Positions 42,722 through 62,522 of a stretch of DNA of 64,000 nucleotides are shown here, piece after piece; position 1 is the first letter of the stretch, and each line of letters starts with the position of its first letter. The stretch is from Gemmobacter megaterium (GTDB lineage: Bacteria > Pseudomonadota > Alphaproteobacteria > Rhodobacterales > Rhodobacteraceae), in NCBI RefSeq assembly GCF_900156815.1, contig NZ_FTOT01000004.1, positions 186,001-250,000 on the forward strand. Direction: 5' to 3'. Below the pieces are notes generated by a model. The model did not search any database. It saw only the letters and a program-made list of their open reading frames with translations, and was not told where the DNA came from. Made by a program: the position numbers and the translations under genes.

Positions 42722-42724
42722 GCG

Positions 42725-43408: not shown

Positions 43409-43418
43409 GGCGGGTGGC

Positions 43419-44608: not shown

Positions 44609-44629
44609 GGCGCAGCCCCTAGCGGCCCA

Positions 44630-44649
44630 CTGTCACACGGGCGTGACAG
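44630..44649. promoter_or_regulatory. CTGTCAC palindrome between DUF1045 gene and phnM
   Basis: CTGTCAC at 44630-44636 and GTGACAG at 44643-44649 make a perfect seven-base inverted repeat with a six-base spacer. CTGTCAC is the PhoB half-site, and the same heptamer occurs upstream of phnC at 32832. PhoB normally uses direct repeats, so another dimeric regulator is also possible. The site lies 22-41 bases before the DUF1045-type gene and 55-74 before phnM. Confidence 0.5.
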
Positions 44650-44703
44650 TCGGATGCCATTCAGCCCGCCCGCGCCCCCGACCGCAAGACAGGACGACCC
44701 AAG

Positions 44704-45846
44704 ATGACCGATACGATCCTTGCCAATGCCCAGATTGTCCTGCCGGACGAGGTGATCCACGGTGCCATCCGCCTGTCGCAGGGCCGCATCCGCGCGATTG
44801 ATCCCGGCCCGGCGGTGCCTGCGGGTGCCATGGATTGCGGTGGCGATCTGGTGATGCCGGGGCTGGTGGAGCTGCATACCGATAACCTTGAGCGCCACAT
44901 GCAGCCGCGCCCCAGGGTAAGCTGGCCGCATATGGCGGCGATCATTGCGCATGATGCGGAACTGGCCAGCGTCGGCATCACCACGGTGTTCGATGCGCTG
45001 CGCGTGGGGTCGGTGGTCAACAGTGCGACCAACTATGGCGAATATGCCCGTGGGCTGGCAGACGAGATCCTGGGCCTGCGCGCCAGCGGGGCGCTGCGGG
45101 TCAGCCATTTCCTGCATCTGCGCGCCGAGGTCTGTTCCGAGACGCTGGTCGCGGAAATGGCCAAGTTCGGCCCTGCGGACCGGATCGGGATCGTCAGCCT
45201 GATGGACCACACCCCCGGCGAGAGGCAGTTCCGCGATCTGTCCAAGCTCAAGGACTATGTCTGCGGCAAACACGGCCTGTCCGACGAAGGCTTTGTCGCC
45301 CATGTTGCCAGCCAGCGCGCGCTGCGCGACCGGCTGGGCGCCTTGCACGAGGCGACGGCGGTTGCCGAGGCGCGGCGCTATGGCGCGGTGCTGGCCAGCC
45401 ATGACGACACCACCGCCGGGCATGTGGCGACGTCGAAATCGCATGACGTGCATTTTGCCGAATTCCCCACCACGGTCGAGGCCGCGCAGGCCTGCCGCAC
45501 TCATGGCATCGGGGTAATGATGGGCGCGCCCAACCTGATCCGGGGCGGGTCGCATTCGGGCAATGTGGCGGCGGCCGATCTGGCGGGGATGGACCTTCTG
45601 GACATCCTGTCATCGGATTACGTGCCCTCGTCGCTGCTGTCGGGGGCGCTGATGCTGGGCGATCTGTGGGGCAACATGGCGCGCGGCATTGCCACCGTCA
45701 CGGCGGCACCCGCCAGGGCGACGGGATTGCAGGACCGGGGCCGTCTGGCGCCCGGCGCACGGGCCGATGTGATCCGCGTGGCGCGGATCGGCGATGCGGG
45801 GGCGGCGGTGCGCGGTGTCTGGGTGCAGGGCAACCGCGTTGGCTGA
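44704..45846 (+). CDS. phnM: alpha-D-ribose 1-methylphosphonate 5-triphosphate diphosphatase
   Basis: A 380-residue metal-dependent amidohydrolase-fold enzyme that releases pyrophosphate from the triphosphate intermediate of the C-P lyase pathway. Diagnostic parts are MPGLVELHTDNLERHMQPRP, whose His is a metal ligand, SLMDHTPGERQF, LASHDDTTAGHV, and DILSSDYVPSSLL. It is separated from phnGHIJKLN by the opposite-strand DUF1045-type gene and has its own upstream palindrome. AGGA stands near the start. Confidence 0.94.
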   Translation: MTDTILANAQIVLPDEVIHGAIRLSQGRIRAIDPGPAVPAGAMDCGGDLVMPGLVELHTDNLERHMQPRPRVSWPHMAAIIAHDAELASVGITTVFDALRVGSVVNSATNYGEYARGLADEILGLRASGALRVSHFLHLRAEVCSETLVAEMAKFGPADRIGIVSLMDHTPGERQFRDLSKLKDYVCGKHGLSDEGFVAHVASQRALRDRLGALHEATAVAEARRYGAVLASHDDTTAGHVATSKSHDVHFAEFPTTVEAAQACRTHGIGVMMGAPNLIRGGSHSGNVAAADLAGMDLLDILSSDYVPSSLLSGALMLGDLWGNMARGIATVTAAPARATGLQDRGRLAPGARADVIRVARIGDAGAAVRGVWVQGNRVG

Positions 45847-45905
45847 CCTTGCCCTGTGGCGCGCGGCGTGAAACCCTGCTGCCGTCCCCTGACACGGAGC
45901 GTTCC

Positions 45906-46295
45906 ATGACCTTGCGCCACCTGCTGCCCGCCACCATCGCCCGGCCTCTGGCCGCCTACAGCCACGGCGTGGAAATCGCGGCCGGGGCGCGGCTGGTGCT
46001 GTGTTCGGGCCAGTTGGCCATCGGGCCGCAGGGCGATGTGCCCGAAGATGCCGGGGCCCAAGCCGAGCGCTGCTTTGCCAACGGCGCCGCGATCCTGGCC
46101 GAGGCAGGCATGACCCTGGCCGATGTGGTGCGGATCAACGCCTATGTCACCGACCGGGCGCATATGGCCCCCTATATGGCGGTGCGCGACCGGCTGTTTG
46201 CGCAACCTGCCCCGGCCTCGACCCTGATGATCGTGACGGGTTTCACCCGGCCCGAGTTCAAGGTGGAAATAGAGTTGCTGGCCGCCCGGCCCTGA
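45906..46295 (+). CDS. RidA family protein (YjgF/YER057c/UK114)
   Basis: A 129-residue protein of the RidA family; classical members hydrolyse reactive enamine/imine intermediates. Visible are LVLCSGQLAIGPQGDVPEDA, the central helix AILAEAGMTLADVVRINAYV, and the last strand FKVEIELLAARP. A conserved Arg is expected in the active site; the segment FTRPEFKVEIE provides one. The ATG at 45906 has GGAG upstream. It follows phnM by 59 bases and precedes the catabolic operon across a hairpin, and could belong to either by function. Several RidA subfamilies act on ring-opening products such as ureidoacrylate. Confidence 0.85.
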   Translation: MTLRHLLPATIARPLAAYSHGVEIAAGARLVLCSGQLAIGPQGDVPEDAGAQAERCFANGAAILAEAGMTLADVVRINAYVTDRAHMAPYMAVRDRLFAQPAPASTLMIVTGFTRPEFKVEIELLAARP

Positions 46296-46467: not shown

Positions 46468-47253
46468 ATGCCCCTGCGCCACTGGTCAGATCTGAAGACC
46501 ACCGATTTCGCCACGCTGGATCCGGATCGGACCGTGGCCCTGCTGCCCGTGGGCGCCACGGAACAGCACGGGCCGCATCTGCCGCTGTCCACCGATTCCG
46601 TGCTGGCAGAGGGCATGGCGCGGCTGGCCGCCACCGCAGCCACCGCCCCGGTGCTGGTGCTGCCCACGGTCACGGTGGCAAAATCCGATGAACATATCGG
46701 CTTTCCGGGCACCCTGACGCTGGATGGTCCCACCCTGCTGGCGGTGCTGGAACAGATCGGCGCCTCGGTCGCGCGGGCGGGTGTGCGGCGGCTGGTGTGC
46801 CTGAATGCCCATGGCGGCAATGTGCCGGTGCTGCACCTGCTGGCGCGCAGCTTGCGGCTGCGGCACGACATGCTGGTGGCCACCGCAGGCTGGGTGTCGA
46901 TGGGCTTTCCCGACGGCGCGGTTCCGGCGCCCGAACAGACCGAGGGCATTCACGGCGGGCTGGTGGAAACGGCGGCGATGCTGCATTTCCGGCCCGATCT
47001 GGTGGACATGACCCAGGCAAGGTACTTTCGCCCCGCCTCGGCCGATATCGCGCAGCGCAATCAGGTGCTGCGGATGCTGGGGCCGGTCGGCCTGGGCTGG
47101 CGGGCCGAGGATCTGCACCCTGACGGCGCCGCTGGCGATGCGCGCGGTGCCACCGCCGAACTGGGCGCCCGTCTTGCCGACCATGCCGCGCGCCGGTTCG
47201 GGCTGCTGCTGGACGAGGTGGCCGCCCTTGCGCTGCCGGCACGACGCGCATGA
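46468..47253 (+). CDS. creatininase family amidohydrolase
   Basis: A 261-residue metal-dependent hydrolase of the creatininase/arylmalonamide family, whose members open cyclic amides such as creatinine or cleave formamide-type bonds. The metal-binding motif PVGATEQHGPHLPLSTDS (residues 27-44, with Glu32, His34 and Asp43) is clear. NAHGGN lies near 113 and IHGGLVETAAML near 160. There is no ribosome site before the ATG. Its stop overlaps the amidohydrolase start by four bases. As the first gene of a ten-gene operon it probably acts on the imported ring compound or an intermediate; true creatininase is only one option. Confidence 0.85.
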   Translation: MPLRHWSDLKTTDFATLDPDRTVALLPVGATEQHGPHLPLSTDSVLAEGMARLAATAATAPVLVLPTVTVAKSDEHIGFPGTLTLDGPTLLAVLEQIGASVARAGVRRLVCLNAHGGNVPVLHLLARSLRLRHDMLVATAGWVSMGFPDGAVPAPEQTEGIHGGLVETAAMLHFRPDLVDMTQARYFRPASADIAQRNQVLRMLGPVGLGWRAEDLHPDGAAGDARGATAELGARLADHAARRFGLLLDEVAALALPARRA

Positions 47254-48500
47254 CCGACCCCTTGCCCCTTGCCGACCTGCTGTTGCGCAATCTGGTGCTG
47301 CCCGCCGCGCTGTGCGACGGGCTGGAGGGCACCGATCTGGGCGACGGGCTGATGCGGGCCGATCTGGCGGTGGCCGATGGCCGCATCACCCCGCTGCGCC
47401 CGGCACGGGAAACCCGCGACATGGGCGGGCGCATCGCCGTGCCGGGTCTGGTCGATGCGCATGTGCATCTGGACAAGTCCCTGACCGCGCATCGCACCGG
47501 CGTCAGCCGCACCGGACTGGCCGAGGCGGTGGAATTGTCGATCGCCGACGCGCCGCACCGCACCCTGCCCGACCTGATCGCGCGGATGGACCGGGCCATT
47601 GCCATGGCCCATGCCAATGGCACCGTGGCGCTGCGCAGCCATCTGGACAGCATGGCCGCCCCCGATGACAGCCCGGCATGGCAGGCCTTGGCGGTGATGC
47701 AGGACCGCTGGCACCTGCGGATGCATCTGGAACCCGTGGCCCTGATGCGGATCGACCGCGCGCTGGAGCCGGGATTTGCCGCCCGCTGTGCACAGATCGC
47801 CGCGCGCGGCGGGCTGGCAGGCGGGTATATTCCGCCAGAGGGCTGTGACAGGGCGGCGGTCGATGCCTTTCTGATCCATGCAGGCGATGCCGGGCTTGCG
47901 GTGGATTTCCACGTCGATGAGACGCTGGACCCCGACGCCAGCGGGATCGAAACCGTGCTGGATGCCATTGCCCGTACCGGTTTCGACCGTTCGGTCACTT
48001 TCGGCCATTGCTGCGCGCTGTCGGCCATGGATCGCCTGAAGGCGTTGCACATTGCCGAACGCATGGCCCATGCCGGGGTGCAGGTGTTCGCCCTGCCCCT
48101 GACCAATGCCTTCCTGATGGACCGTTGCCCCGGCACCAGCCCGCGCCTGCGCGGCATGACGTTGGTGCAGGAACTGGCCGCCCTGGGCGTGCCTGTCGGA
48201 TTTGCATCGGACAATGTGCGCGATGCCTTTTACCCCCATGGCAGCTATGACCTGTGGGAAGTGTTCCGCCAGGCGGTGCTGGCCATGCAACTGGAAGCTG
48301 CCCCGCAGGACTGGATCGCCGCCATCACCACCCGCCCCGCCACGGCCATGGGCCGCAGCGCCCGCATTGCCCCCGGTGCCCCGGCGGACCTGATCCTGTT
48401 CGACGCCTGCGACTGGACCGGGCTGTTGTCCCGCGCACATGAAAACCGGCTGGTCCTGCGCGCGGGCCGCCCCCTTGAAAGCCCCCCCGCATGGACCTGA
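47250..48500 (+). CDS. amidohydrolase, cytosine-deaminase/AtzC-like
   Basis: A 416-residue metal-dependent hydrolase of the cytosine-deaminase subgroup (CodA/AtzC), which removes amino groups from pyrimidine or triazine rings or opens cyclic ureides. Metal ligands are His71 and His73 in DAHVHLDKSL, a His in DFHVDET near 213, a His in FGHCCALS near 251, and the Asp of ASDNVRD near 322. The LDKS after the first motif and the FxHVDE motif favour this subgroup over dihydropyrimidinases. It overlaps the genes on both sides (4 and 10 bases). The substrate is unknown. Confidence 0.84.
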   Translation: MTDPLPLADLLLRNLVLPAALCDGLEGTDLGDGLMRADLAVADGRITPLRPARETRDMGGRIAVPGLVDAHVHLDKSLTAHRTGVSRTGLAEAVELSIADAPHRTLPDLIARMDRAIAMAHANGTVALRSHLDSMAAPDDSPAWQALAVMQDRWHLRMHLEPVALMRIDRALEPGFAARCAQIAARGGLAGGYIPPEGCDRAAVDAFLIHAGDAGLAVDFHVDETLDPDASGIETVLDAIARTGFDRSVTFGHCCALSAMDRLKALHIAERMAHAGVQVFALPLTNAFLMDRCPGTSPRLRGMTLVQELAALGVPVGFASDNVRDAFYPHGSYDLWEVFRQAVLAMQLEAAPQDWIAAITTRPATAMGRSARIAPGAPADLILFDACDWTGLLSRAHENRLVLRAGRPLESPPAWT

Positions 48501-49870
48501 CCGCGCTGAAAACCGATCTCGACGGGCTGGACATCGACGACCGCCCCAGCGTGCTGCGGGCAAAGAGCCGCGATTTCTACTGGTATTCGCCCATCCTGAA
48601 ACGCCAGCTGGACGGGATCACCGCCGATCTGGTCATTTCCCCCCGCGACGAGGCCGAGGTGATCCGCGTGCTGTCCGCCTGCTACCGCCACAGGGTGCCG
48701 GTGACGGTGCGGGGTGCAGGGACCGGGAATTATGGCCAGGCCATGCCACTGCAAGGCGGCGTGGTGCTGCACATGCAGCATATGGCAGGCGTCATCGCCC
48801 TGGGCGACGACCATGTGGTCGTCCGCTCTGGAACGGTCATCGACCATATCGAACAGCATCTGCGCCGGAACGGCCGGGAGATCCGGCTGTTCCCGTCCAC
48901 CACGGCCACGGCCACCATCGGCGGGTTCATCGCGGGCGGATCGTCCGGGGTGGGCGCGATCCGCTGGGGGGGCCTGCGCAACCCCGCCAACATCCGCCGC
49001 CTGCGGCTGGTGACCATGGAGGAAACGCCGCGCGTGCTGGACCTGACCGGGCATGACATCCACAAGGCCGCCCATGCCTATGGCGTCAACGGCGTGATGA
49101 CAGAAGTCGAACTGCCGGTGGACCCGGCAGGCGACTGGGTGGATGTGATGATCACGGCGCCAGATTTCATCGCCGCCAACCAGTTGGCGATCGAACTGGG
49201 CGAAGCACTGCTGTTGCGGATGCTGTCCACCTTCGCCGCGCCGGTGCCGGAGTTGTATTTCCAGCGCTACCGCCGCCATGCGGGCACGGGCCGCGCGGTC
49301 CTCGCGCTGATGGTGGCCCGCGACGCGCTGCCCGCGCTGGAGGCCCGCGTCACCGCCTGGCCGGGGGCCGCGATCACCTATCGCGCCGACCGGGCCGATC
49401 CGGCCGAACGCCTGCCCGCGCTGTATGAAATGGCCTGGAACCACACCACCCTGCGCGCCATCCGCATCGACCCCGGCGTGACCTATCTGCAAATGATGTT
49501 CCCGCGCGACCGCATGGCCGAAACCATTGCCGCACTGGAGCTCCGCTTTGGCAACGAACTGATGCTGCATTGCGAATACACACGGTTCAACGGCGTGGTC
49601 AGCCCTGTGGCGATGCCCCTTGTCCGCTTCACGACCGAAAACCGGCTGGAAGAGCTGATACAACTTCTGGAAGCCGAGTTTCCGATCACCGTGTTCAACC
49701 CGCATCGCGTGACACTGGAAGAAGGCGGGATGAAGCGGACCGACCTCTCGCAACTGGACTTCAAGCGCCAGACCGATCCGCTGGGGCTGATGAACCCCGG
49801 CAAGATGATCGCCTGGACCACCCCCGACTGGACGCCGGAAACCGGCAAGAATTTCCTGTTCACCGAATGA
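48491..49870 (+). CDS. FAD-binding oxidoreductase (PCMH/GlcD-type)
   Basis: A 459-residue flavoprotein with an N-terminal PCMH FAD domain: VTVRGAGTGNYGQAMPLQGG near residues 73-92 and STTATATIGGFIAGGSSGVG near 137-156. A C-terminal substrate domain ends in TDPLGLMNPGKMIAW. No signal peptide and no iron-sulfur motif are seen. The family includes glycolate, lactate, vanillyl-alcohol and sugar-acid oxidases. This one differs from the GlcD-like gene at 4686 in lacking the STGEHG motif. Within this operon it probably oxidises an intermediate at a hydroxyl or amine carbon. Confidence 0.83.
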   Translation: MDLTALKTDLDGLDIDDRPSVLRAKSRDFYWYSPILKRQLDGITADLVISPRDEAEVIRVLSACYRHRVPVTVRGAGTGNYGQAMPLQGGVVLHMQHMAGVIALGDDHVVVRSGTVIDHIEQHLRRNGREIRLFPSTTATATIGGFIAGGSSGVGAIRWGGLRNPANIRRLRLVTMEETPRVLDLTGHDIHKAAHAYGVNGVMTEVELPVDPAGDWVDVMITAPDFIAANQLAIELGEALLLRMLSTFAAPVPELYFQRYRRHAGTGRAVLALMVARDALPALEARVTAWPGAAITYRADRADPAERLPALYEMAWNHTTLRAIRIDPGVTYLQMMFPRDRMAETIAALELRFGNELMLHCEYTRFNGVVSPVAMPLVRFTTENRLEELIQLLEAEFPITVFNPHRVTLEEGGMKRTDLSQLDFKRQTDPLGLMNPGKMIAWTTPDWTPETGKNFLFTE

Positions 49871-49880
49871 AGGCCCCACG

Positions 49881-50462
49881 ATGAAGGTGCATGTCATCTA
49901 CGCCCACCCGCAGCCCGACAGCCTGAATGCCACGCTGCATCGCACCGTGGTTCAGGCGCTGACCGAGGCCGGGCATCAGGTGGACGATCTGGATCTGTAT
50001 GCCGAAGGGTTCGACCCTGTGTTGACCCGTGCAGACCGCGATATCTATCACGATGTGCCTGCCAACCGGGCGCGGGTGGACGGGTATGTCCAGCGCCTGC
50101 AAGCCTGCGATGCGGTGGTGTTGTGCCATCCGGTGTGGAATTTCGGCTGGCCTGCAATCCTGAAAGGGTATTTCGACAAGGTGTTCCTGCCCGATGTCTC
50201 GTTCAGGATGCACGATGGCCAGGTGTCGCCAGGGTTGCAGAACATCCGCAAGCTGGCCACCGTGACCACCTATGGGTCGAAACGCTGGCGGGCCTGGTTT
50301 CTGGGCGATGCGCCCCGGCGGAATGCCACCCGGTTTCTGCGGGTATGCTGCAATCCGATGGTAAAGGTCAGCTATCATGCCCTATACGACATGAACAACG
50401 TAAGCCGTGCCGAAACCGACGCCTATGTCGCCCGTGTACGCGCGGCGATGCTGAAATTCTGA
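49881..50462 (+). CDS. NAD(P)H-dependent flavodoxin-fold oxidoreductase (NQO1/KefF/MdaB-like)
   Basis: A 193-residue flavodoxin-like FMN/FAD reductase. It starts VHVIYAHPQPDSLNATLHRT, the phosphate-binding turn of the family. The flavin and substrate loop HPVWNFGWPAILKGYFDKVF lies near residues 89-108, and TVTTYGSKRW follows. It may supply reduced flavin or reduce a quinone-like intermediate for its operon partners. Its stop overlaps a possible ATPase start codon. Confidence 0.84.
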   Translation: MKVHVIYAHPQPDSLNATLHRTVVQALTEAGHQVDDLDLYAEGFDPVLTRADRDIYHDVPANRARVDGYVQRLQACDAVVLCHPVWNFGWPAILKGYFDKVFLPDVSFRMHDGQVSPGLQNIRKLATVTTYGSKRWRAWFLGDAPRRNATRFLRVCCNPMVKVSYHALYDMNNVSRAETDAYVARVRAAMLKF

Positions 50463-50473
50463 TGGAAGCTGCC

Positions 50474-51214
50474 ATGACTGCCCCTGCCCTGCGGTTCGAC
50501 AACGTGTCGATGCAATATCCCGATGGCACTGTTGCGCTGGCGGGGGTGGATCTGTCGGTGGCGCCGGGCGAATTCGTCTCGGTCGTCGGGCCGTCGGGTT
50601 GTGGGAAATCGACGTTGCTGAAACTCGCCTCGGGGCTGGAAACCCATACCGGGGGCGAGATCTGGGTGGACCGGGCCAGTCTGGGATACACGTTTCAGGA
50701 TGCGACCCTGCTGCCCTGGCGCACGGTGCTGCCCAATGTGGAACTGCTGATGGAGCTGCGCGGCGTGCCGGCAGCCGAACGCCGACGGATCGCGCTGGAA
50801 CAGATCGACCTTGTCGGGCTGAACGGGTTCGAGAACCATTATCCCAAGCGGCTGTCGGGCGGAATGCGGATGCGCGCCGCGCTGGCGCGATCCCTGGCGC
50901 TGAATCCGGGGGTGTTCATGTTTGACGAGCCCTTTGGTGCGCTGGATGAGATTACCCGCGAGCGGCTGATCGACGAAGTGATCGGGCTCTATCTGCGCAA
51001 GGGGTTCACCGGCCTGTTCATCACCCATTCCATCCCCGAGGCGGTGTATCTGTCGTCCCGCGTGGTGGTGATGAGCCGGCGCCCCGGCCGGATCATGGCC
51101 GAATTCGACATCCCTTTTGACTGGCCCCGCACCGCAGATCTGCGCTGGAACCCGGATTTCACCCGGCTGGCGGGCGAGGTATCGGTCGCCCTGCGCCGCG
51201 CGATGGAGGATTAG
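50474..51214 (+). CDS. ABC transporter ATP-binding protein (nitrate/sulfonate/taurine type)
   Basis: A 246-residue ATPase of the SsuB/TauB/ThiZ group. It has Walker A GPSGCGKST, the Q-loop YTFQDATLLPWRTVLPN, which is typical of this group, signature LSGGMRMRAALARSL, Walker B VFMFDEPFGALDE, and switch His in FITHSIPEA. I use the ATG at 50474 with GGAAG upstream; one at 50462, overlapping the previous stop, is also possible. With the next two genes it forms an importer. Confidence 0.9.
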   Translation: MTAPALRFDNVSMQYPDGTVALAGVDLSVAPGEFVSVVGPSGCGKSTLLKLASGLETHTGGEIWVDRASLGYTFQDATLLPWRTVLPNVELLMELRGVPAAERRRIALEQIDLVGLNGFENHYPKRLSGGMRMRAALARSLALNPGVFMFDEPFGALDEITRERLIDEVIGLYLRKGFTGLFITHSIPEAVYLSSRVVVMSRRPGRIMAEFDIPFDWPRTADLRWNPDFTRLAGEVSVALRRAMED

Positions 51215-51217
51215 GCC

Positions 51218-52117
51218 ATGACCACCCGCCACGCCCCCCAGCCTGTCGCCCCCCCGCCTGTCACCCGCGCGCCGCGCATTCACCCTGAACGCTTTGCCCC
51301 CGTGCCGGTGGAACAGCCCCCCGGCCCCTTGCGGGCCTTTGTGGCGCTGATGTTGCCGCCGGTGATCATGGGGCTGCTGCTACTGGCGCTGTACGCCTGG
51401 ACCCGCTGGAACCTGCCGCCGCACCGCCAGTTCCTGATGCCATCGGCCCATGGCCTGTGGACCGAGGCGCTGTCCCGCCCCGAGGTGCTGGCCGAATTGT
51501 GGGACCGCAGCCTTGTGACCATCACCATCGCGCTCACCGGGCTTGGGGTGTCGATCCCGCTGGGCATGGCCATCGGCATCGTGATGTTCCGCTTTCACGT
51601 CATGGAACGCGCGGTATTTCCCTATCTGGTGGCGCTGCAATCCATTCCGATCCTGGCGATCATTCCCCTGATCCAGAGCGGGCTTGGCTTCGGCTTCATG
51701 CCCAAGGTGCTGATCGTGGCGCTGTTCACCTTTTTCGCCTTTCCCACCACGCTGCTGTTGGGGCTGAAAAGCCTGGACCGCGGCATCCTGAACCTGTTCC
51801 GCCTGCAAGGGTCCAGTTGGGGGGCAATGCTGTGGAAGGCGGGCCTGCCTTCGGCCGCGCCGGCGCTGTTTGCGGGGTTCCGCATCTCGACCGGCATGGC
51901 GATCATCGGCGCGGTCACGTCGGAACTGTTCTTCCTTGCGGGCAAGGGCGGGCTGGGGCAAATGCTGATCAACGCCAAGACCGACTTCAAGTACGAGCAG
52001 ATGTATGCCGCACTGATCGCATCTTCGGCGTTGTCGATAACGGTGTACCTGGTCTTCACCTGGGCGGGAAACCGCCTGTTCGCAAGCTGGCACGAAAGTG
52101 CCGCCCGCCGGGGCTGA
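51218..52117 (+). CDS. ABC transporter permease (nitrate/sulfonate/taurine type)
   Basis: A 299-residue permease of the SsuC/TauC/ThiX kind. A Pro-rich cytoplasmic N terminus of about 40 residues precedes six helices (first: LMLPPVIMGLLLLALYAW). The ATPase-contact loop is FRLQGSSWGAMLWKAGLPSAAP. Typical late segments are GMAIIGAVTSELF and GKGGLGQML. It starts 3 bases after the ATPase gene. Members of this group import taurine, sulfonates, nitrate, riboflavin or pyrimidine precursors. Confidence 0.9.
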   Translation: MTTRHAPQPVAPPPVTRAPRIHPERFAPVPVEQPPGPLRAFVALMLPPVIMGLLLLALYAWTRWNLPPHRQFLMPSAHGLWTEALSRPEVLAELWDRSLVTITIALTGLGVSIPLGMAIGIVMFRFHVMERAVFPYLVALQSIPILAIIPLIQSGLGFGFMPKVLIVALFTFFAFPTTLLLGLKSLDRGILNLFRLQGSSWGAMLWKAGLPSAAPALFAGFRISTGMAIIGAVTSELFFLAGKGGLGQMLINAKTDFKYEQMYAALIASSALSITVYLVFTWAGNRLFASWHESAARRG

Positions 52118-52166: not shown

Positions 52167-53318
52167 ATGATCAAAGGTCTGCTTTGCGCCGTCGCCACCA
52201 CGACGACCGCGCTTGCCGCGCTGCCTGCCCTTGCCCAGGGCACCACTGCCGAACGCTATGCCACACCGCTGGCCGATGTATGCCCCAGCCCGCTGTATAT
52301 CCAGAAGGACTGGCTGGCGCAGGCCGAACACGGCGGGCTGTACCAGCTGATCGGGCCGGGCGGCGTGATGGAACAGGGCCGCTATACCGGCCCGCTGGGA
52401 TCCACCGGGATCGACCTTGTGATCCTGGAAGGCGGAGGCAACATCGGCCTGGGCGATGGCGAAACCGCCTATTCGGCACTGTTCAACGGCAATTCCAGGG
52501 CAGGCGTCACCCCGCATCTGGGCTTTCAGGAACTGGACAACGCCTTCATCTTTTCCAGGCGGTTCCCGGTGACGGGCGTCTTCACCGCCTTGGACAAGGC
52601 GCCGTCGGGCCTGTTCTGGGATGTCGGCACCTATCCCGAAGGCTTCCATTCGATCGAGGATCTCCGGGCCTTTGCCGCCAGCGGCACGGGGATGATCTAT
52701 GTCTCGACCATCACGCGGACCTTCGGCCTGTATCTGGTGAATTCCGGCGTGCCCAAGGATGTCTTTGTCGAAGGCTATCGCGGCGATGGCGAGAATTTCG
52801 TCACCAGCAACGGAACCTGGCTGAACCAGGGCTTTGTCACATCCGAGGTCTACAAGTACAGCCACGGCAACAACTGGGGCAAGCCGGTCGATGCGGTGAC
52901 GGTGAACGAACTGGGCTATCCCACCTATACCGGCATGTTGGCGGTCGCCAATCACCGGCTGGAGGAACTGGCCCCCTGTCTGACCAGGCTGGTACCGATC
53001 CTGCAACAGGCGCAGGTGGATTACATCACCGCACCCGAGATGGCGAACAAGGTTATCCACGATTTCAACGCCGGTGGATTTGCCACAAGCTGGTGGAAAA
53101 CCTCGATGGAGTTGAACGCCTTTTCCGCCGCCGCGCAAAAGGAACGCGGCATCGTCGGCAACGGCCCCAATGCCACGCTGGGCGATTTCGATATGGATCA
53201 GGTCAAGGCGATGTATGACATCGTGAAACCCTGGCTGGACGAACGCGCCAATCCCGATGTGACGCCCGAGGATGTGGTCACCAACCGCTTCATCGACCCC
53301 GCCATCGGGCTGAAGTGA
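52167..53318 (+). CDS. ABC transporter substrate-binding protein (SsuA/NMT1-like)
   Basis: A 383-residue periplasmic receptor. The signal peptide (MIKGLLCAVATTTTALAALPALA) is followed by CPSPLYIQKDWLAQAEHGGLY, with a SSuA/THI5-like arrangement in outline. Later segments are GFHSIEDLRAFAASGTGMIY and TAPEMANKVIHDFNAGG. It is longer than most SsuA-like proteins (about 320). GGGA stands seven bases before the ATG. It likely delivers the operon's substrate to the adjacent permease; the ligand is not identifiable by eye. Confidence 0.85.
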   Translation: MIKGLLCAVATTTTALAALPALAQGTTAERYATPLADVCPSPLYIQKDWLAQAEHGGLYQLIGPGGVMEQGRYTGPLGSTGIDLVILEGGGNIGLGDGETAYSALFNGNSRAGVTPHLGFQELDNAFIFSRRFPVTGVFTALDKAPSGLFWDVGTYPEGFHSIEDLRAFAASGTGMIYVSTITRTFGLYLVNSGVPKDVFVEGYRGDGENFVTSNGTWLNQGFVTSEVYKYSHGNNWGKPVDAVTVNELGYPTYTGMLAVANHRLEELAPCLTRLVPILQQAQVDYITAPEMANKVIHDFNAGGFATSWWKTSMELNAFSAAAQKERGIVGNGPNATLGDFDMDQVKAMYDIVKPWLDERANPDVTPEDVVTNRFIDPAIGLK

Positions 53319-53319
53319 C

Positions 53320-54159
53320 ATGGCGGCCGTGCTGCTGGACGGTGACGCGCTGGCCGCGACCCTGCGCCGCGACATGGCGGCGGCGGTCGGGCGCCTGCCC
53401 CGCCCGCCGCGCATGGCCACCGTGCTGGTCGGGGATGACCCGGCCAGCCGCGCCTATATCGGGCGCAAACATGCCGATTGCGCCGAACTGGGGATCGCCG
53501 CCGATCTGGTGACCATGCCGGCCGACACGACGCCCGCCGCCCTGCTGGACACGGTTGCGCGGCTGAATGCCGATCACGCGGTGGACGGGTTCTTTGTGCA
53601 GTTTCCGCTGCCCGGCGGGCATGATGCGAGGGCGGTCGCCGCCGCCATCGCCCCGGACAAGGACATCGACGGGCTGGCGCCTGAAAACCTGGGCCGGATG
53701 ATCGCCGGGCTGCCGGGCCTGCGCCCCTGCACGCCAGCCGCCGTGCTGGCGCTGCTGCACCGATATGACGTGCCGCTGGCCGGGCGCCATGTGGTCATCG
53801 TGGGGCGCGGGCTGCTGGTCGGGCGGCCGCTGGCGCTGATGCTGTCGGCGCGGGGCGTCGATGCCACGGTGACGCTGGCCCATTCTGCCACGCCCGACCT
53901 GCCCGCCCAGACCCGCCGCGCCGATGTGGTGATCGCCGCGGCCGGGCAGCCCGGCCTGATCCGCGCCGACATGATCCGCCCCGGCGCCGCCGTGGTGGGC
54001 GTGGGGATCAGCTATGTCGGCGGCCAGATGGTTTCGGACCTTGCCGCCGATGTGGCGGGGGTGGCTGGCCATGTCACCCCGCCGCATGGGTCGGTCGGCG
54101 CCTTGACCCGCGCCATGCTGCTGGCCAACCTGATCGACGCGGTCCGCCGCCATGGCTGA
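53320..54159 (+). CDS. FolD paralogue 1: methylenetetrahydrofolate dehydrogenase/cyclohydrolase-like
   Basis: A 279-residue FolD-family protein; canonical FolD interconverts methylene-, methenyl- and formyl-tetrahydrofolate. The catalytic residues of the folate site are present: Tyr46 and Lys50 (AYIGRK), Gln94 (FVQFPLP) and Asp117 (DKDIDG). The dinucleotide site is altered: GRGLLVGRP lacks the Ser usually found in GRS.xVGxP. The C-terminal signature PVPGGVGPMT reads PPHGSVGALT. It follows the receptor gene by one base and overlaps the IclR gene. It is probably not the housekeeping FolD. It pairs with the paralogue at 54928, which has the opposite defects. Confidence 0.85.
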   Translation: MAAVLLDGDALAATLRRDMAAAVGRLPRPPRMATVLVGDDPASRAYIGRKHADCAELGIAADLVTMPADTTPAALLDTVARLNADHAVDGFFVQFPLPGGHDARAVAAAIAPDKDIDGLAPENLGRMIAGLPGLRPCTPAAVLALLHRYDVPLAGRHVVIVGRGLLVGRPLALMLSARGVDATVTLAHSATPDLPAQTRRADVVIAAAGQPGLIRADMIRPGAAVVGVGISYVGGQMVSDLAADVAGVAGHVTPPHGSVGALTRAMLLANLIDAVRRHG

Positions 54160-54931
54160 CCGCCCCCCCATGGACACCGACAAGGAGGTTTCGTTGACCT
54201 TCGCCAAGGGGCTGGACGTGATCGAAGCCTTTGCCGGGACCGAACGCCGCCTGTCGGTTTCGGAACTGGCCGCCCGAACCGGCCTGAACCGCGCCGTCAC
54301 CCGCCGCCTTGTGCGCACATTGGAAATGAAGGGCTATGCCCGCGCCGACCGGGGGCAGTACGAACTGACACCCCATGTGCTGCGGCTGATCCGCGGCTTC
54401 ATCGAAGGGCGCAGCCTGCCGCAGATCGTGCATCCGATCCTGCGCCGTCTGGCCGAGGAGATTGGCGAATCCACCTCTTTTGCCATGCTGGACGACACCG
54501 AGGCGGTCTATGTCGCCCATGCCTTTCTGCCGTCGCGCTTCACGCTGAACAGGGTAACGGTTGGCTCACGGGTGCCGCTGTTGCCGACAGCGGCGGGGCG
54601 GGTGATCCTGGCCTTTCTGCCTGTGGGGGAACGCGCCGCCCTGACGGCCCGGCTGGCCGCCGCCGCCCCCGCGCCGCAGACCCCGGACGAGGCGCATCGG
54701 ATGGCCACGATCCTGGCCGACTGCCAGCGGCTGGGCTATTGCCTGTCGGACAGCGACTATGTCGAGGGTGTCGCCTCGCTGGCGGTGCCGGTGTTCGACG
54801 GATTGCAGCATGTGACGGGGGCGATCTCGATCATCTTTCCCACCCATGGCCTTGATGCGGCAGAGATTGCCGGACGGATCGCGCCCCGGATGCAGGCGGG
54901 CGCCGCAGAGCTGTCAGGCGCATTGCCATGA
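54152..54931 (+). CDS. IclR family transcriptional regulator
   Basis: A 259-residue regulator: winged helix-turn-helix (LSVSELAARTGLNRAVTRRL, about residues 34-53), then the IclR effector domain with LPTAAGRVILAFL and SDYVEGVASLAVPVFDG. It sits between the two FolD-like genes and overlaps both (8 and 4 bases), so it is made from the operon it probably controls. The ATG at 54152 lacks a ribosome site. A TTG at 54194 has a perfect AAGGAGG five bases upstream and would give a 245-residue protein starting just before FAKGLDVIEAF. That may be the true start. Confidence 0.88.
   Translation: MADRPPMDTDKEVSLTFAKGLDVIEAFAGTERRLSVSELAARTGLNRAVTRRLVRTLEMKGYARADRGQYELTPHVLRLIRGFIEGRSLPQIVHPILRRLAEEIGESTSFAMLDDTEAVYVAHAFLPSRFTLNRVTVGSRVPLLPTAAGRVILAFLPVGERAALTARLAAAAPAPQTPDEAHRMATILADCQRLGYCLSDSDYVEGVASLAVPVFDGLQHVTGAISIIFPTHGLDAAEIAGRIAPRMQAGAAELSGALP
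54182..54196 (+). promoter_or_regulatory. strong internal ribosome site and TTG start in the IclR gene
   Basis: AAGGAGG at 54182-54188, a full anti-16S match, stands five bases before an in-frame TTG at 54194. No such site precedes the annotated ATG. This points to initiation at TTG, or to two forms of the regulator. Confidence 0.5.
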
Positions 54932-55743
54932 CGCAGGTGTTCACGGGATTTGCACTGGCAGAGCGGATTCAGGCCGGGACGCGGGCCATGGTCGGACGGC
55001 TGGGCCGCGCGCCGGTCTGCGTGACGCTGCTGGATCCGGCGAATGGCGCCGCCGCAGCCTATCTGGCCCGCCAGAGCGCCATGGCCGCCAGCGCCGGGGT
55101 GAGGATCTCGGCCAGCGACTGGGGCAACGATCCGGCCGCTCGGCTGGCGGCATATGCCGCCGATCCGGCGGTCGATGCGGTGGCGGCGCTGTTTCCCCTG
55201 CCCCACGGGCTGACACCACAGGCGGTGGCGGCGCTTGTCGGGGCGGAAAAGGATGTCGATGGCCAGCATCCGACCCACGCGGGCGGCCTGCTGCTGGGCG
55301 ATGGTACCACACGCCCCCCCGCGACCGCGCAGGCGGCGCTGCTATGTGCCAGAGAGATTCTGGGGGATCTGCGCGGCGCAGACCTGACACTGGTCGGCGC
55401 CTCGCGGCTGATCGGGCGCCCTCTGGCGATGCTGCTGACCGATGCGGGGGCCACGGTGACGCTGTGCCATGCCGAGACCCGCGATCTGGCGACCCATACG
55501 CGCCGGGCGGATCTGATCGTGACAGCCGCAGGCGTAAAGGGGCTGATCGGGCGCGATCATGTGGCGCCGGGCGGCAGGGTGCTGGATCTGGCGGTCATAC
55601 CGACAGCCGCAGGGCTGGTCGGCGACGCGGACCGGGCGGCGCTGGACAGCCATGCCGCGCTGGTGTCCGCCGTCCCCGATGGCGTGGGGCCAGTGACGAC
55701 GGCCTGCCTGATCGCCAATATCGCCAAGGCCGCGCGAGGCTGA
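54928..55743 (+). CDS. FolD paralogue 2 lacking cyclohydrolase residues
   Basis: A 271-residue FolD-family protein with an intact-looking dinucleotide fold (GASRLIGRPLAMLL) and C-terminal signature (VPDGVGPVTTACL). Two of the three residues needed for cyclohydrolase action are replaced: the Lys after Tyr45 is Gln49 (AYLARQ), and the Gln of VQLPLP is Leu88 (ALFPLP). Asp111 (EKDVDG) remains. It therefore cannot be a normal bifunctional FolD. It may be a dehydrogenase-only partner of paralogue 1, since FolD works as a dimer, or may act on another substrate. It overlaps the IclR stop by four bases and ends the operon. Confidence 0.82.
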   Translation: MTQVFTGFALAERIQAGTRAMVGRLGRAPVCVTLLDPANGAAAAYLARQSAMAASAGVRISASDWGNDPAARLAAYAADPAVDAVAALFPLPHGLTPQAVAALVGAEKDVDGQHPTHAGGLLLGDGTTRPPATAQAALLCAREILGDLRGADLTLVGASRLIGRPLAMLLTDAGATVTLCHAETRDLATHTRRADLIVTAAGVKGLIGRDHVAPGGRVLDLAVIPTAAGLVGDADRAALDSHAALVSAVPDGVGPVTTACLIANIAKAARG

Positions 55744-55940: not shown

Positions 55941-57185
55941 TCACCGCATCTGTTCGGTGGCGAACCCGGCGATGCGCGAATAGCCGTTCACGATGGCCTC
56001 GCGTTCGGCCAATGGCATGATCGTCTCCAGATCGTCGAACCGCTGCCCCGGCAGATCGCGGATGCGGGCCTCGACCTCGTCGATCACGCGCTCGGGGCCG
56101 CCCATGCGGTTGCCCGCCACAACCTCGTTGACCGGGCCAAGCCGCGCGGCCTCATAGGCCAGCAGGGCCGCAGCGGGATCGCCGCCCTGTCCGCAGATCT
56201 GCCCCAGCATCCGCGCATCAAGAATGGCCTGCGCCGATCCATTGGCCCCGAACGGATACATCGGATGCGCCGCATCCCCCAGCAGGGTGATGCGGCCGCG
56301 CGTCCAACTGGCCAGCGGGTCGCGGTCGCACATCGGAAAATCCCAGAATACCGGGGTGGCATCCACCATGGCGCGAATATCGGTCTCGGGCACGGTGAAG
56401 TCTTGCAGGATCGGGTGCAGCACCTCGGCCCTGGCCTCGCGGTCCCAGTCCTCGCGGCCGGGGGTGGGGCTGCCGGGGGCGGCTGCGCGGATCACACAGG
56501 CCCAGTTCATCAACTGCGTGCCCGGCGTCTTGCCCGGCCCGATCGGATAGAAGATGAACTTGCGCGTCATGCCCCCGGAATTGATGATCGTGTGCCCGTC
56601 CAGCACCACCGGCCAATCGACAGAGCCGCGCCACAGCAACAGCCCGGACCAGCGCGGCGCGCCCTCGTCGGGGTTCAGGTGGCGGCGCACGGCGGAATGG
56701 ATGCCATCGGCACCAACCAGCACATCGCCATGATCGGTGAAGGTGCTGCCATCGGCGCGGCGGAAGGTGGCGACAACCCCGTCGCCGGTCTCCGTGGCCG
56801 ACTCGAAGGCCGCATCCAGCGTCAGGGTGCCCGCCGGCATCCGCGCCGCCACCGCATCCAGCAGGACGGTATGAATATCGGCGCGATGCGCGGTGATCTG
56901 CGGCACGTCATAGCCCGCCTTCAGGCCGCGCGGCGCATCCCATACCGCCTGACCGCCGCGCGTGCGAAAGATCATGCGGTCGGTACGAACCCCGAGCCGG
57001 TCCAGCGGCGCCATCAGCCCGATCTCGTCCAGCGCCTTGACAGCATGGGGCAGCAGGGTGATGCCGACCCCCAGATGGCCGATTTCGGGCACCTTTTCAT
57101 AGACTTTGCAAGGCACACCTGCCTTGTGCAGAAACAGGGCGGCGGTCAGCCCGCCGATGCCGCCCCCGGCAATGATGACTTTCAT
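55941..57185 (-). CDS. FAD-dependent aromatic monooxygenase (PhzS/6-hydroxynicotinate 3-monooxygenase-like)
   Basis: A 414-residue single-component flavoprotein hydroxylase of the p-hydroxybenzoate hydroxylase class. It has the FAD fold AGGGIGGLTAALFL (residues 6-19), the DG motif VLVGADGIHSAVRR near 155, and the GD motif ITLLGDAAHPMYPFGANG near 292. The last two, with QAILDARML, resemble PhzS and related enzymes that hydroxylate N-heterocyclic acids. It is the last gene of the minus-strand operon. Its likely role is ring hydroxylation or oxidative decarboxylation of the compound first attacked by the molybdenum hydroxylase; that order is inferred. Confidence 0.86.
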   Translation of the reverse strand: MKVIIAGGGIGGLTAALFLHKAGVPCKVYEKVPEIGHLGVGITLLPHAVKALDEIGLMAPLDRLGVRTDRMIFRTRGGQAVWDAPRGLKAGYDVPQITAHRADIHTVLLDAVAARMPAGTLTLDAAFESATETGDGVVATFRRADGSTFTDHGDVLVGADGIHSAVRRHLNPDEGAPRWSGLLLWRGSVDWPVVLDGHTIINSGGMTRKFIFYPIGPGKTPGTQLMNWACVIRAAAPGSPTPGREDWDREARAEVLHPILQDFTVPETDIRAMVDATPVFWDFPMCDRDPLASWTRGRITLLGDAAHPMYPFGANGSAQAILDARMLGQICGQGGDPAAALLAYEAARLGPVNEVVAGNRMGGPERVIDEVEARIRDLPGQRFDDLETIMPLAEREAIVNGYSRIAGFATEQMR

Positions 57186-57188
57186 GGC

Positions 57189-57635
57189 TCAGCCCCTTGC
57201 CCGACGGTCGGCGATGATCTGATCCAGCCAGGGCCCGTCCAGCTCTGGCATCAGCACGACATTTTCCTGTTCGCGCGCATCGTTGCGGGCGGTGATGGCT
57301 GTGGCGGGTTCGGTCATCGACAGGTTGAAGGCGATATGCGGCACCACCGGCGGAATATAGGTGAAGCTGCCGGGCAGCATCAGCGCCTCGTGTTCCAGCT
57401 TGTCACCATAGAGCAGCACAATGGCGCCCGAGACCGTATAGATCGCGGTTTCATAGTCGCGGTGGTAATGGGTTTTCGCCCGCCCGCCGGGACCAAAGGC
57501 GGTCAGGTTCAGCGACAGGTTCCTTGCACCCGTGCTGTTTTCCGACACGCCGAAAAAGGCGGGCATTCCCTGTTTTGCAATTGCGGTGGTCTTGGGGGTG
57601 AAGATCATCACCCTGGTGCCGTCGGGGGTGGTCAT
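57189..57635 (-). CDS. cupin domain protein
   Basis: A 148-residue single-domain cupin. The metal motif HYHRDYETAIYTVSG (His, His, Glu) and PPVVPHIAFN (last His) are visible, so a bound metal is expected. It could be an oxygenase, isomerase or sensor. The start at 57635 has GAGGA; upstream codons of the open frame are shadow sequence of the YciI gene. It lies 14 bases after the YciI gene and 3 before the monooxygenase gene. Confidence 0.83.
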   Translation of the reverse strand: MTTPDGTRVMIFTPKTTAIAKQGMPAFFGVSENSTGARNLSLNLTAFGPGGRAKTHYHRDYETAIYTVSGAIVLLYGDKLEHEALMLPGSFTYIPPVVPHIAFNLSMTEPATAITARNDAREQENVVLMPELDGPWLDQIIADRRARG

Positions 57636-57649
57636 GGCGGAGTCCTCTG

Positions 57650-57937
57650 TCAGGTCTTGGGAAGGGGGGCGCGGTTCCATTGCAGGATACGGGTGTCGGG
57701 GCGCAGGCCCGCGGTGCAATAGGGATCGCCAAGGGCCAGGGCGCGGGCGTCGGCGAGGCTGTCCGCCTCGATCACCCACAGCGAGCCACAGAAGGGCGCA
57801 TCGGCATCGGTGCGCAGACCGCCCGCCTCGGTGATGCGGTCGCGGTGCCGCGCGAGATAGTCGAAATGCGCCGAGGTCAGCGCAGGGTCGAGGTCACGCG
57901 GTTGAATATCGTCGAAGAACAGGGCGATGAAGCGCAT
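57650..57937 (-). CDS. YciI family protein
   Basis: A 95-residue protein of the YCII family, with MRFIALFFDD at the start, the conserved RxxHxxYL-like stretch (TSAHFDYLARHRDRI), SLWVIEADSLADARALALGDPY and the final W. Related proteins fold like muconolactone isomerase and act on lactones or chlorinated muconates in aromatic pathways. That fits a ring-cleavage setting here. It starts 2 bases after livF ends. Confidence 0.82.
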   Translation of the reverse strand: MRFIALFFDDIQPRDLDPALTSAHFDYLARHRDRITEAGGLRTDADAPFCGSLWVIEADSLADARALALGDPYCTAGLRPDTRILQWNRAPLPKT

Positions 57938-57939
57938 GG

Positions 57940-58656
57940 TTACAGTCCCAGATAGGCGCGTCGCACGGCGGGCGCGGCAAGCAGTTCGGCCCCGGTCCCC
58001 GTCATGGCGATGCGGCCGTTTTCCAAAAGGGTGGCGTGGTCGGCGATTTCCAGCGCCACGCGGGCGTTCTGTTCGGCCAGCAGGATGGTAAAGCCCGCCG
58101 CGCGCAGTTCGGCGATGGTGTCGAACACCTTTCGGACCATCACCGGAGCCAGCCCAAGGGTGGGTTCATCCATCAGGATCAGCCGGGGCCGCGCCATCAG
58201 ACCGCGCCCCAGCGCCAGCATCTGCTGTTCGCCCCCCGACATCAGGCCCGCGCGCTGGTGGCGGCGTTCCTGCAAGCGGGGAAACCGGCGATAGACCTCG
58301 GCCAGCATCTCGTCATGTCCGGCGCGGGCCGACGGGGCGATGGCACCAAGGCGCAGGTTCTGCTCCACCGTCATGCCGCCAAAGACCAGGCGGCCCTCGG
58401 GGATCAGCGCCAACCCGCCATCGACCCGCGCATGGCTGGGCAGATGGGCAATGTCGCGGCCCTGAAACAGCACGGTGCCGCTGCGGGGGGCCACCATGCC
58501 GGCAAGGGTTTTCATCAGCGTGGTCTTGCCTGCGCCATTGGCCCCGATCAGCGTGGTGACACTGCCACGCGCCACCGCCAGATCGACGCCGAACAGCACC
58601 TGCACCTGGCCATAGGCCACGCTCAGGTCATGGACGGACAACAGGACATCGGTCAT
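57940..58656 (-). CDS. livF: branched-chain amino acid-type ABC transporter ATP-binding protein LivF
   Basis: A 238-residue ATPase of the HAAT transporter family. It has Walker A GANGAGKTT, the LivF-type stretch LALIPEGRLVFGGMTVEQNL, signature MSGGEQQMLALGRGLM, Walker B LILMDEPTLGLAP, and AEQNA at the switch. Its start overlaps the LivG stop by four bases. Transporters of this class import amides, urea or aromatic acids as well as amino acids. Confidence 0.93.
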   Translation of the reverse strand: MTDVLLSVHDLSVAYGQVQVLFGVDLAVARGSVTTLIGANGAGKTTLMKTLAGMVAPRSGTVLFQGRDIAHLPSHARVDGGLALIPEGRLVFGGMTVEQNLRLGAIAPSARAGHDEMLAEVYRRFPRLQERRHQRAGLMSGGEQQMLALGRGLMARPRLILMDEPTLGLAPVMVRKVFDTIAELRAAGFTILLAEQNARVALEIADHATLLENGRIAMTGTGAELLAAPAVRRAYLGL

Positions 58657-59369
58657 CCGAAATACACCTCTGCCACCTGGGCGTTGCGCCCGATCTCCTG
58701 CGGTGTGCCACTGGCGATTTCCTCGCCGTGGTGCAAGACAAGGATACGGTCGGACAGGGTCATCAGCGCGCCGATGACATGTTCGACGATCACAAAGGTC
58801 AGCCCCCGGTCGCGGCGCAGGCTGGACAGGGTGTCCAGCATGGCGGCAATCTCGGTCGGGTTCAGCCCCGCCATCACCTCGTCCAACATCACCAGCTCGG
58901 CGCCGGTGGCCAGGGCGCGGGCGATTTCCAGCCGCTTCTGCCCCGAGAGCGTCAGGGCCCCGGCCAGCGTATCGCGCTGATCCGCCAGGCCCACGGCTGC
59001 CAGCGCCTCGGCCACCCTGGCCCCGACCTGGGCGCCGCGCAGGGCATGGGCGCCGTACAGCGCCGCGACCCGCACGTTCTCTGCCACGCTCAGCCCGGCC
59101 ATCGGACGCACGATCTGAAAGGTGCGGCATATACCCTGACGACAGATCCGCGCCGGTGACAGGCCGGTCAGCCGCTGGCCCTTGAACAGCACTTCGCCGC
59201 TGGTGGGGGCGGCATGGCCCGCGATCACGCTGAACAGCGTGGTCTTGCCTGCCCCGTTCGCCCCCATCAGCCCCAGGATCTCGCCCTTGGCGACCGACAG
59301 GCTGACATCGTTCAGCGCCACGATGCCGCCGAACCGCTTGGTGATGTGGCGCACCTCCAGCAAGGTCAT
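58653..59369 (-). CDS. livG: branched-chain amino acid-type ABC transporter ATP-binding protein LivG
   Basis: A 238-residue ATPase partner of LivF. It has FGGIVALNDVSLSV at the start, Walker A GANGAGKTT, the LivG-type ICRTFQIVRPMAGLSV Q-loop, and the signature LSGQKRLEIARALA. Walker B is ELVMLDEVMAGLNP, where a Val replaces the usual Pro after DE, and the switch region is IVEHVI. The start at 59369 overlaps the LivM stop by four bases. Confidence 0.93.
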   Translation of the reverse strand: MTLLEVRHITKRFGGIVALNDVSLSVAKGEILGLMGANGAGKTTLFSVIAGHAAPTSGEVLFKGQRLTGLSPARICRQGICRTFQIVRPMAGLSVAENVRVAALYGAHALRGAQVGARVAEALAAVGLADQRDTLAGALTLSGQKRLEIARALATGAELVMLDEVMAGLNPTEIAAMLDTLSSLRRDRGLTFVIVEHVIGALMTLSDRILVLHHGEEIASGTPQEIGRNAQVAEVYFG

Positions 59370-61155: not shown

Positions 61156-61213
61156 GGTTCGGTTTCCGATGTGTCAGGGGGTGCCCCGCCCCACACGGGC
61201 GGGGCCTGCCCGC

Positions 61214-62401: not shown

Positions 62402-62522
62402 CGTGTCCTGACTCCTGTTGGGGTGGTCGTGCGCCCCGGTTTTGGTCCGGGGTCGTGTCGTCGTAAGGTGGTCGTGCCGGATCCGGGCCATGCCCGGTGT
62501 CGTCCGATGCGCCGGGGCGGGG

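Follow-up and report, generated by a model that had tools for sequence, protein, structure and literature searches.

Two FolD-like genes lie in a 64,000-nucleotide stretch of Gemmobacter megaterium DNA (contig NZ_FTOT01000004.1, positions 186,001 to 250,000; this whole stretch is called the window below). They may be part of a mobile accessory module for the catabolism of folate or of a pterin close to it, in which the first, FolD1, would serve as a folate one-carbon enzyme and the second, FolD2, would have been repurposed. We favour this reading tentatively, at somewhat less than an even chance. FolD is the methylene-tetrahydrofolate (THF) dehydrogenase/methenyl-THF cyclohydrolase, and according to the cited part of a 2024 survey (PMC11064299) most bacteria and archaea, with exceptions, have a single one. 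Both open reading frames (ORFs) are real and encode proteins of 279 (FolD1) and 271 (FolD2) amino acids. The ORFs and their Pfam matches confirm the original prediction of two FolD-like genes with an IclR gene between them and an ATP-binding cassette (ABC) importer in front. The genome has three PF02882 matches: FolD1, FolD2 and, as the original prediction had proposed to check, a separate canonical folD, on another contig and adjoining fhs (identified by reading, no family search having been made for it).

The residues that set FolD2 apart lie at its substrate site. The cited part of PMC3368264 gives seven key residues of human FolD, Tyr52, Lys56, Gln100, Leu101, Asp125, Gly273 and Gly276, which by our own mapping are Tyr50, Lys54, Gln98, Leu99, Asp121, Gly261 and Gly264 of the E. 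coli protein; E. coli numbering is used for family-wide counts. Among 38 other FolDs the Lys is kept in 37, and the Gln and Gly261 in all 38. In FolD2 the Lys is lost from 15/15 members (Gln in 11, Leu in three, Ile in one) and Gln98 is replaced by Leu in 15/15. Gly261, also one of the seven, is replaced by Asp in 15/15, giving the signature PDGVGPVTT in place of PGGVGPMT. Tyr50 and Asp121 are each retained in 14/15, Gly264 in 15/15 and Leu99 in 3/15. The window's own protein has Gln49 and Leu88 where Lys and Gln are expected, and the alignment agrees with the earlier reading of these residues. That reading had also called the dinucleotide loop and C terminus of FolD2 normal; the NAD(P) loop is indeed near-canonical, but the C terminus, with its fixed Asp, is not. 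The NAD-binding Pfam domain scores above its cut-off (124.8 bits), whereas the catalytic domain falls below (29.0 against 32.8), and FolD2 is below the curated cut-off in all 25 listed of the 30 matched NCBIfam models. In a computed model of MTHFD2, described in the cited part of PMC9173628, the equivalent Lys anchors a pterin oxygen and touches the Gln; the paper argues that in dehydrogenation it serves binding more than catalysis, and does not exclude a catalytic role in the cyclohydrolase reaction. As judged from the alignment, the substrate site of FolD2 is rebuilt. Because the Lys and Gln are lost while the NAD loop, the stacking Tyr and the pterin-head Asp are kept, a substrate with an altered pterin ring would be the simplest reading.

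FolD1 differs from other FolDs in another way. Its catalytic and NAD(P)-binding Pfam domains both score above cut-off (106.1 and 171 bits), and it stays below the curated NCBIfam cut-offs (298.2 against 401 at best, all 25 listed of the 30 matched models being below); PDB entry 1edz is a weak match of its sequence. The window protein retains Tyr46, Lys50, Gln94 and Asp117, as had been predicted. Across the family Tyr50, Lys54, Gln98, Asp121, Gly261 and Gly264 are invariant (18/18) and Leu99 is kept in 13/18. Changes specific to FolD1 are D229G, G242S and G262S in 18/18 and P260H in 17/18; D229 and P260 are each changed in two of the 38 comparison FolDs. The C terminus departs from PGGVGP, reading HGS[VL]G[APS] in 17/18 members and QGSVGA in the other. 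The original prediction had counted both this C terminus and an altered dinucleotide loop as defects of FolD1. The signature is changed (P260H, G262S), but the loop, VGRGLLVGRP, resembles the actinobacterial type that includes Mycobacterium tuberculosis FolD, with Gly at this place in 4 of the 38 comparison FolDs, and as a defect it was ruled out. Because the Tyr, Lys, Gln, Asp and both key glycines are kept in 18/18, FolD1 has no evident catalytic defect on alignment, and it probably still handles one-carbon folates. Of the complementary defects once proposed for the pair, only the FolD2 half holds. The other suggestion made there, two enzymes repurposed for another substrate, is plausible for FolD2 and undecided for FolD1.

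The two genes have separate origins. In a midpoint-rooted maximum-likelihood tree of 71 FolDs, from which 14 duplicate or fragment rows had been removed beforehand, FolD1 and FolD2 were each monophyletic with support 100. The sister of FolD1 is a FolD on Rhodococcus erythropolis plasmid pLRE138 (support 99), within an actinobacterial clade (100), and FolD2 forms a separate long branch. The window FolD1 and FolD2 are 37% identical, and FolD2 and the canonical FolD 36%. By this phylogeny the two are separately derived and therefore not halves of a recent duplicate; they are paralogues in that one genome holds both, but not each other's nearest relatives. In six pairwise comparisons covering the window and two related loci (L012 and L014), the ratio of non-synonymous to synonymous substitution rates (dN/dS) was 0.240–0.296 for FolD1 and 0.215–0.281 for FolD2. 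Both genes thus represent, on these ratios, conserved families under purifying selection rather than chance, and simple duplication followed by decay was ruled out by the two separate clades and the low ratios.

Occurrence was surveyed with the window's substrate-binding protein, a clean bait because it matches no Pfam or NCBIfam family at E 0.001. Scanning genome contigs from 84,980 species with it returned 67 loci. A gene-order table covers L008 and L012–L047, the 31 loci L048–L078 (at most 28% identity) falling outside it. Those with at least 55% identity to the bait form a set of 24: the window, a plasmid record (L008), L012–L031, L046 and L047, 22 of them from the scan. The 14 loci L032–L045 (at most 49% identity) were left out of this set, and neither FolD appears in their gene-order table. 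All counts are conditioned on clusters that retain this binding protein, and owing to shared ancestry the 16 joint occurrences given below amount to fewer than 16 independent cases. Three loci, L021, L022 and L030, lie on short contigs, and for L022 the part lacking there was covered separately.

FolD1 is present in 18 of the 24 loci and FolD2 in 16, all 16 with FolD1. The FolD2 genes are that of the window, ten within the first flanks, four just beyond them and one contig-end fragment (L024); a 37% match in L031 proved to be a cross-match of FolD1. The gene for the flavodoxin-like oxidoreductase has the same distribution as FolD2: it is present in these 16 loci and absent from the remaining eight. 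Within the 16 pairs, the FolD genes lie on opposite strands in 11, are same-direction neighbours in three (window, L012 and L014), lie about 14 kb apart on the same strand in one and on separate contigs in one. The proposal that the two would always occur together holds for FolD2 (16/16) but not for FolD1, which lacks a detected FolD2 in 2 of 18 genomes: Devosia sp. A8/3-2 (L031/G692) and Chelativorans sp. ZYF759 (L022/G684), a draft in which the contig with the remainder of the cluster has an IclR gene and no FolD2 match after it. A genome with either gene as its only folD was not cleanly found, since canonical folD is intact in 16 of the 17 FolD1 genomes other than the window's; in Devosia sp. 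A8/3-2 it reads in two frames, possibly through a sequencing error, leaving FolD1 as the only intact folD seen there. Each of the genomes behind L019, L027 and L047, loci with the binding protein and neither FolD, has one PF02882 match.

The pair is rare in wider samples. Profiles separate members from the available outsiders: members score 438 bits or more against 357 with the FolD1 profile, and 333 or more against 255 with the FolD2 profile. A sample of 385 genomes from the class yields the window's genome and no other, whether it is searched with the FolD1 profile (E 1e-100), the FolD2 profile (E 1e-80) or the binding protein (E 1e-30). Among 295 genomes of the family, FolD2 at E 1e-45 again finds only this genome, the one other sampled member of the genus being negative. 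In 71 genomes from the family of G676 the FolD2 profile matches two, both already known with FolD1. In 71 from the family of G680, a sample mostly overlapping the former, the FolD1 profile matches two, both known with FolD2.

The link to folate comes from the neighbouring flavoenzyme. It matches PDB entry 6V42 over its full length at 508.8 bits (50% identity over 457 columns; next PDB sequence, 63.8), and a Foldseek search with its predicted model, at a predicted local distance difference test score (pLDDT) of 78.5, returned the same entry at 50% identity. The title of 6V42 is 'Crystal structure of the flavin oxygenase with cofactor bound involved in folate catabolism'. A closer relative of 6V42 (719.4 bits) is encoded on Rhizobium johnstonii pRL12, in a run of creatininase, LysR, NMT1-type binding protein, ABC, cytosine deaminase, flavoenzyme, NAD(P)H oxidoreductase and RidA genes, with PaoABC adjoining; no FolD is annotated in that stretch. 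For the window's binding protein, a sequence-profile search of the PDB gave nothing convincing (best E 0.53). The solved folds nearest to its predicted model are a formylaminopyrimidine binder (ThiY), a thiamin binder and Thi5; the best match, 3ix1, has template-modelling scores of 0.58 on the query and 0.71 on the target, and the two best matches are 12–14% identical. Flavoenzyme, Rhizobium-type clusters and binding-protein fold together point to a pterin-like substrate, most likely folate.

The FolD module and the flavoenzyme do not always share a locus. Where FolD1 is present (18 genomes), the flavoenzyme is encoded beside it in the one locus in 13 and lies elsewhere in four more (62% identity in G684, 49% in G685, G687 and G692). 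In Devosia sp. LC5 (G685) the importer/FolD1/FolD2 module and a Rhizobium-type cluster with the flavoenzyme lie on different contigs, so the module is separable. For G687, which is a Rhizobiales isolate, and for G692, whose module has FolD1 only, a like split is suggested by flavoenzyme and deaminase matches elsewhere in the genome.

From these genes and residues we infer a substrate, reactions and an order of reactions as follows. The module would comprise the importer, the flavodoxin-like oxidoreductase, FolD1 and FolD2, usually with the IclR regulator, and in the window it would be joined to the genes for the 6V42-type flavin oxygenase, the deaminase and the creatininase-type hydrolase. A pterin-type substrate would be taken up by the importer. 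FolD1 would oxidise and hydrolyse the N5–N10 one-carbon bridge of reduced one-carbon folates, and FolD2 would catalyse a related NAD(P)-linked reaction, its substrate being a derivative whose pterin ring has been altered. This derivative would be made or reduced probably with the help of the flavodoxin-like oxidoreductase, since the gene for the latter and FolD2 are found in the same 16 of the 24 loci. The flavin oxygenase, deaminase and creatininase-type enzyme might then cleave and open the ring system. A bolder version, which we think unlikely, makes FolD2 a new enzyme class in the FolD fold, whose substrate would be a folate intermediate with an altered ring, delivered by a flavodoxin-type reductase. 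Together with FolD1 it would provide dedicated one-carbon clearing in vitamin B9 catabolism, fed through an unrecognised folate/pterin ABC importer; the loss of the pterin-contacting Lys and Gln and the new Asp in the signature loop would be the rebuilding.

Folate catabolism appears to be an open field, because a 2025 paper on riboflavin breakdown (PMC12746152) counts, in its cited part, only the catabolic pathways of B6, NAD+ and riboflavin as well characterised. The cluster brings together genes that can be tested as a set, for an importer, for two FolD variants and for a flavoenzyme that has a homologue of solved structure. It is also a natural experiment on the FolD active site, the Lys and Gln held to be important for catalysis being replaced throughout a conserved family under purifying selection. 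No description of the FolD pair or of the cluster was found among titles and abstract starts of the open-access literature, a weak negative since 'FolD' is inseparable from 'fold' in such a search and work on 6V42 may be in print.

Several observations weigh against a dedicated role of the pair in folate breakdown. The tie between cluster and folate runs through one PDB title and a homology of 50% only. In Agrobacterium sp. AGB01 (G678), where the importer is accompanied by both FolDs, there is no deaminase match at E 1e-30 and the flavoenzyme homologues are only 31–33% identical. Conversely, both FolDs are missing from four loci with binding protein and flavoenzyme, namely L019, L027, L047 and L008 (known as a plasmid record only). 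A flavoenzyme homologue (E 1e-90) turns up in 17 genomes of the 372 sampled, against only the window's own genome for the FolDs in a comparable sample. On these occurrences the FolDs are dispensable for the core pathway, that is, accessory. Finally, purU, fhs and GcvT-like genes are not among the named genes of the cluster, although no search aimed at them was made; purU adjoins folD in Celeribacter and Streptomyces plasmids.

It is unlikely, but deserves weight, that FolD2 and perhaps FolD1 serve the breakdown of some other N-heterocycle by acting on a cyclic aminal or amidine that is not a folate, the likeness to 6V42 reflecting the chemistry of heterocycle oxygenation and not the substrate. 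Four of the seven key human and Leishmania residues (PMC3368264, cited part) are mostly missing from FolD2, with Lys, Gln and Gly lost in 15/15 and Leu in 12/15, and the creatininase and deaminase score under their curated cut-offs. Locus neighbours are variable and include hydantoinase, ureidoglycolate-lyase-like, D-amino-acid-dehydrogenase-like, Rieske and glutamine-synthetase-like genes. Yet FolD1 keeps its catalytic set, FolD2 keeps the pterin-head Asp and the p-aminobenzoate-stacking Tyr (each 14/15), and the binding-protein fold and the flavoenzyme suggest pterin-like ligands.

Yeast Mtd1 is a monofunctional methylene-THF dehydrogenase. FolD2 might likewise be a monofunctional NAD(P)-dependent enzyme of this kind, with FolD1 as cyclohydrolase or bifunctional partner, both working on ordinary one-carbon folates and expressed with the catabolic operon. 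The kept NAD loop and the loss of the cyclohydrolase-linked Lys would fit, as would the role in dehydrogenation, more in binding than in catalysis, for which the cited part of PMC9173628 argues in the case of this Lys. We consider it improbable, since the full catalytic sets of FolD1 and of the chromosomal FolD leave no obvious need for a second dehydrogenase, and FolD2 has lost the Gln and Gly261 as well.

Disposal of one-carbon units after N-demethylation is not favoured as the main role. Three loci (L018, L024 and L028) do combine both FolDs with Rieske and glutamine-synthetase-like genes, but loci with Rieske, DAO and glutamine-synthetase-like genes include those without FolDs, and the lack of purU, fhs and GcvT-like genes among those named, with the limit already given, also speaks against it. 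DAO as a replacement for FolD2 was dropped, both being present in L013, L016, L018, L024 and L026.

FolD2 might instead have no catalytic activity and serve in binding or regulation, as a sensor or carrier of folate or pterin; we find this very improbable. Loss of the catalytic Lys to three different residues speaks for it, but the near-canonical NAD(P) loop, the fixed Gln-to-Leu and Gly-to-Asp changes and the dN/dS values of FolD2 suggest a specific enzyme. Each FolD active site lies within one chain. The split, obligate FolD1–FolD2 heterodimer originally proposed gains from the constant company of FolD2 with FolD1 and their same-direction adjacency in three loci, but it is the least credible reading, given an apparently intact FolD1 of different origin, two genomes with FolD1 and no detected FolD2 (the first a draft, the second a genome whose canonical folD reads in two frames), and gene pairs mostly on opposite strands or, in one case each, 14 kb apart and on separate contigs; and because the MTHFD2 dimer joins through its NAD domains (PMC9173628, cited part), one subunit would not obviously repair the other.

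The catabolic module we favour is laid out in the window as listed in Table 1. All ten genes of the cluster are also present at L012, the locus of Gemmobacter nectariphilus DSM 15620. FolD1 and the IclR gene overlap by 8 nt and the IclR gene and FolD2 by 4 nt (ATGA), and a gap of 1 nt separates the binding-protein gene from FolD1; because of this spacing the four genes fit a single operon.

Table 1. Genes of the cluster in the window and the basis of their assignment
Feature	Position	Strand	Basis
Rid-family (imine deaminase) protein, just upstream of cluster	45666..46295	+	PF01042, 76.4 bits, residues 93-207 of a long ORF; start codon provisional
Creatininase-family amidohydrolase	46468..47253	+	PF02633, 241.7 bits; NCBIfam creatininase 98.2, below cut-off of 235
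Cytosine-deaminase-like amidohydrolase	47250..48500	+	PF07969/PF01979; NF005759 345.1 bits, below cut-off of 403; best PDB relatives are cytosine deaminases
FAD_binding_4 flavoenzyme, homologue of PDB 6V42	48491..49870	+	508.8 bits to 6v42_A, full length; 50% identity
Flavodoxin-like NAD(P)H oxidoreductase	49881..50462	+	PF02525, 111.7 bits
ABC transporter ATP-binding protein	50456..51214	+	PF00005
ABC transporter permease	51218..52117	+	PF00528
Substrate-binding protein, family without Pfam match	52167..53318	+	Model pLDDT 88.3; nearest folds ThiY, thiamin-binding protein, Thi5
FolD1	53320..54159	+	Catalytic residues intact, own signature PHGSVGALTRA; 18 members
IclR-family regulator	54152..54931	+	PF01614/PF09339
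FolD2	54928..55743	+	Lys to Gln/Leu/Ile, Gln to Leu, signature PDGVGPVTTA; 15 full members and one fragment

Just upstream of the cluster, window positions 38901-45846 hold phn carbon–phosphorus lyase genes (phnH, K, L, N and M were recognised). Homologues of the phn family also flank the module in L012 and are differently arranged in L023, L025 and L031, making five of the 24 loci in all. Downstream, on the minus strand (55941-62491), FAD monooxygenase and cupin genes are followed by apparent ABC transporter genes, as read from the ORFs; among the loci compared, these opposite-strand genes are matched only in L012. A SnoaL-like protein is encoded beside FolD2 in nine genomes (L014:13608-14222, and L015, L017, L020, L023, L025, L026, L046 and L112); the L014 protein has an apparent signal peptide by reading, and no SnoaL-like gene was found in the window. 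The L033 contig, titled as a Bifidobacterium breve metagenome-assembled genome, has a 48% identical binding protein and ABC genes, and its taxonomic label looks doubtful. In Allorhizocola rhizosphaerae (L037, 6938-13016) an actinobacterial version combines a deaminase (32%), ABC genes, a related binding protein (34%) and a flavoenzyme (31%) with a carbon-nitrogen hydrolase, and FolD is not matched in that locus.

FolD1 and FolD2 share the two-domain architecture of FolD by sequence, the catalytic domain of FolD2 scoring just under its Pfam cut-off, and FolD1 shares its catalytic set; they differ from it by D229G, G242S, P260H and G262S in FolD1 and by the absence of Lys54, Gln98 and Gly261 from FolD2. 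The binding protein has its nearest solved folds among ThiY/Thi5-type binding proteins, but identity to the two best matches is 12–14% and no Pfam family matches it. The PDB 6V42/6V43 enzyme and the Rhizobium pRL12 cluster share with the window the flavoenzyme, cytosine-deaminase-like, creatininase, NAD(P)H oxidoreductase and Rid genes and an ABC importer, whereas pRL12 has an NMT1-type binding protein, PaoABC alongside and no FolD annotated in the stretch. The Rhodococcus erythropolis pLRE138 locus, at whose edge lies an FAD-binding oxidoreductase gene, resembles the window in its FolD, the sister of FolD1 (support 99), and in flanking IclR and NTF2-like genes. It differs in having purU, folP, P450, aminomethyltransferase and aldehyde dehydrogenase genes, a FolD with the signature GGVGP and no ABC importer annotated in the stretch, and is possibly a THF-linked demethylation cluster.

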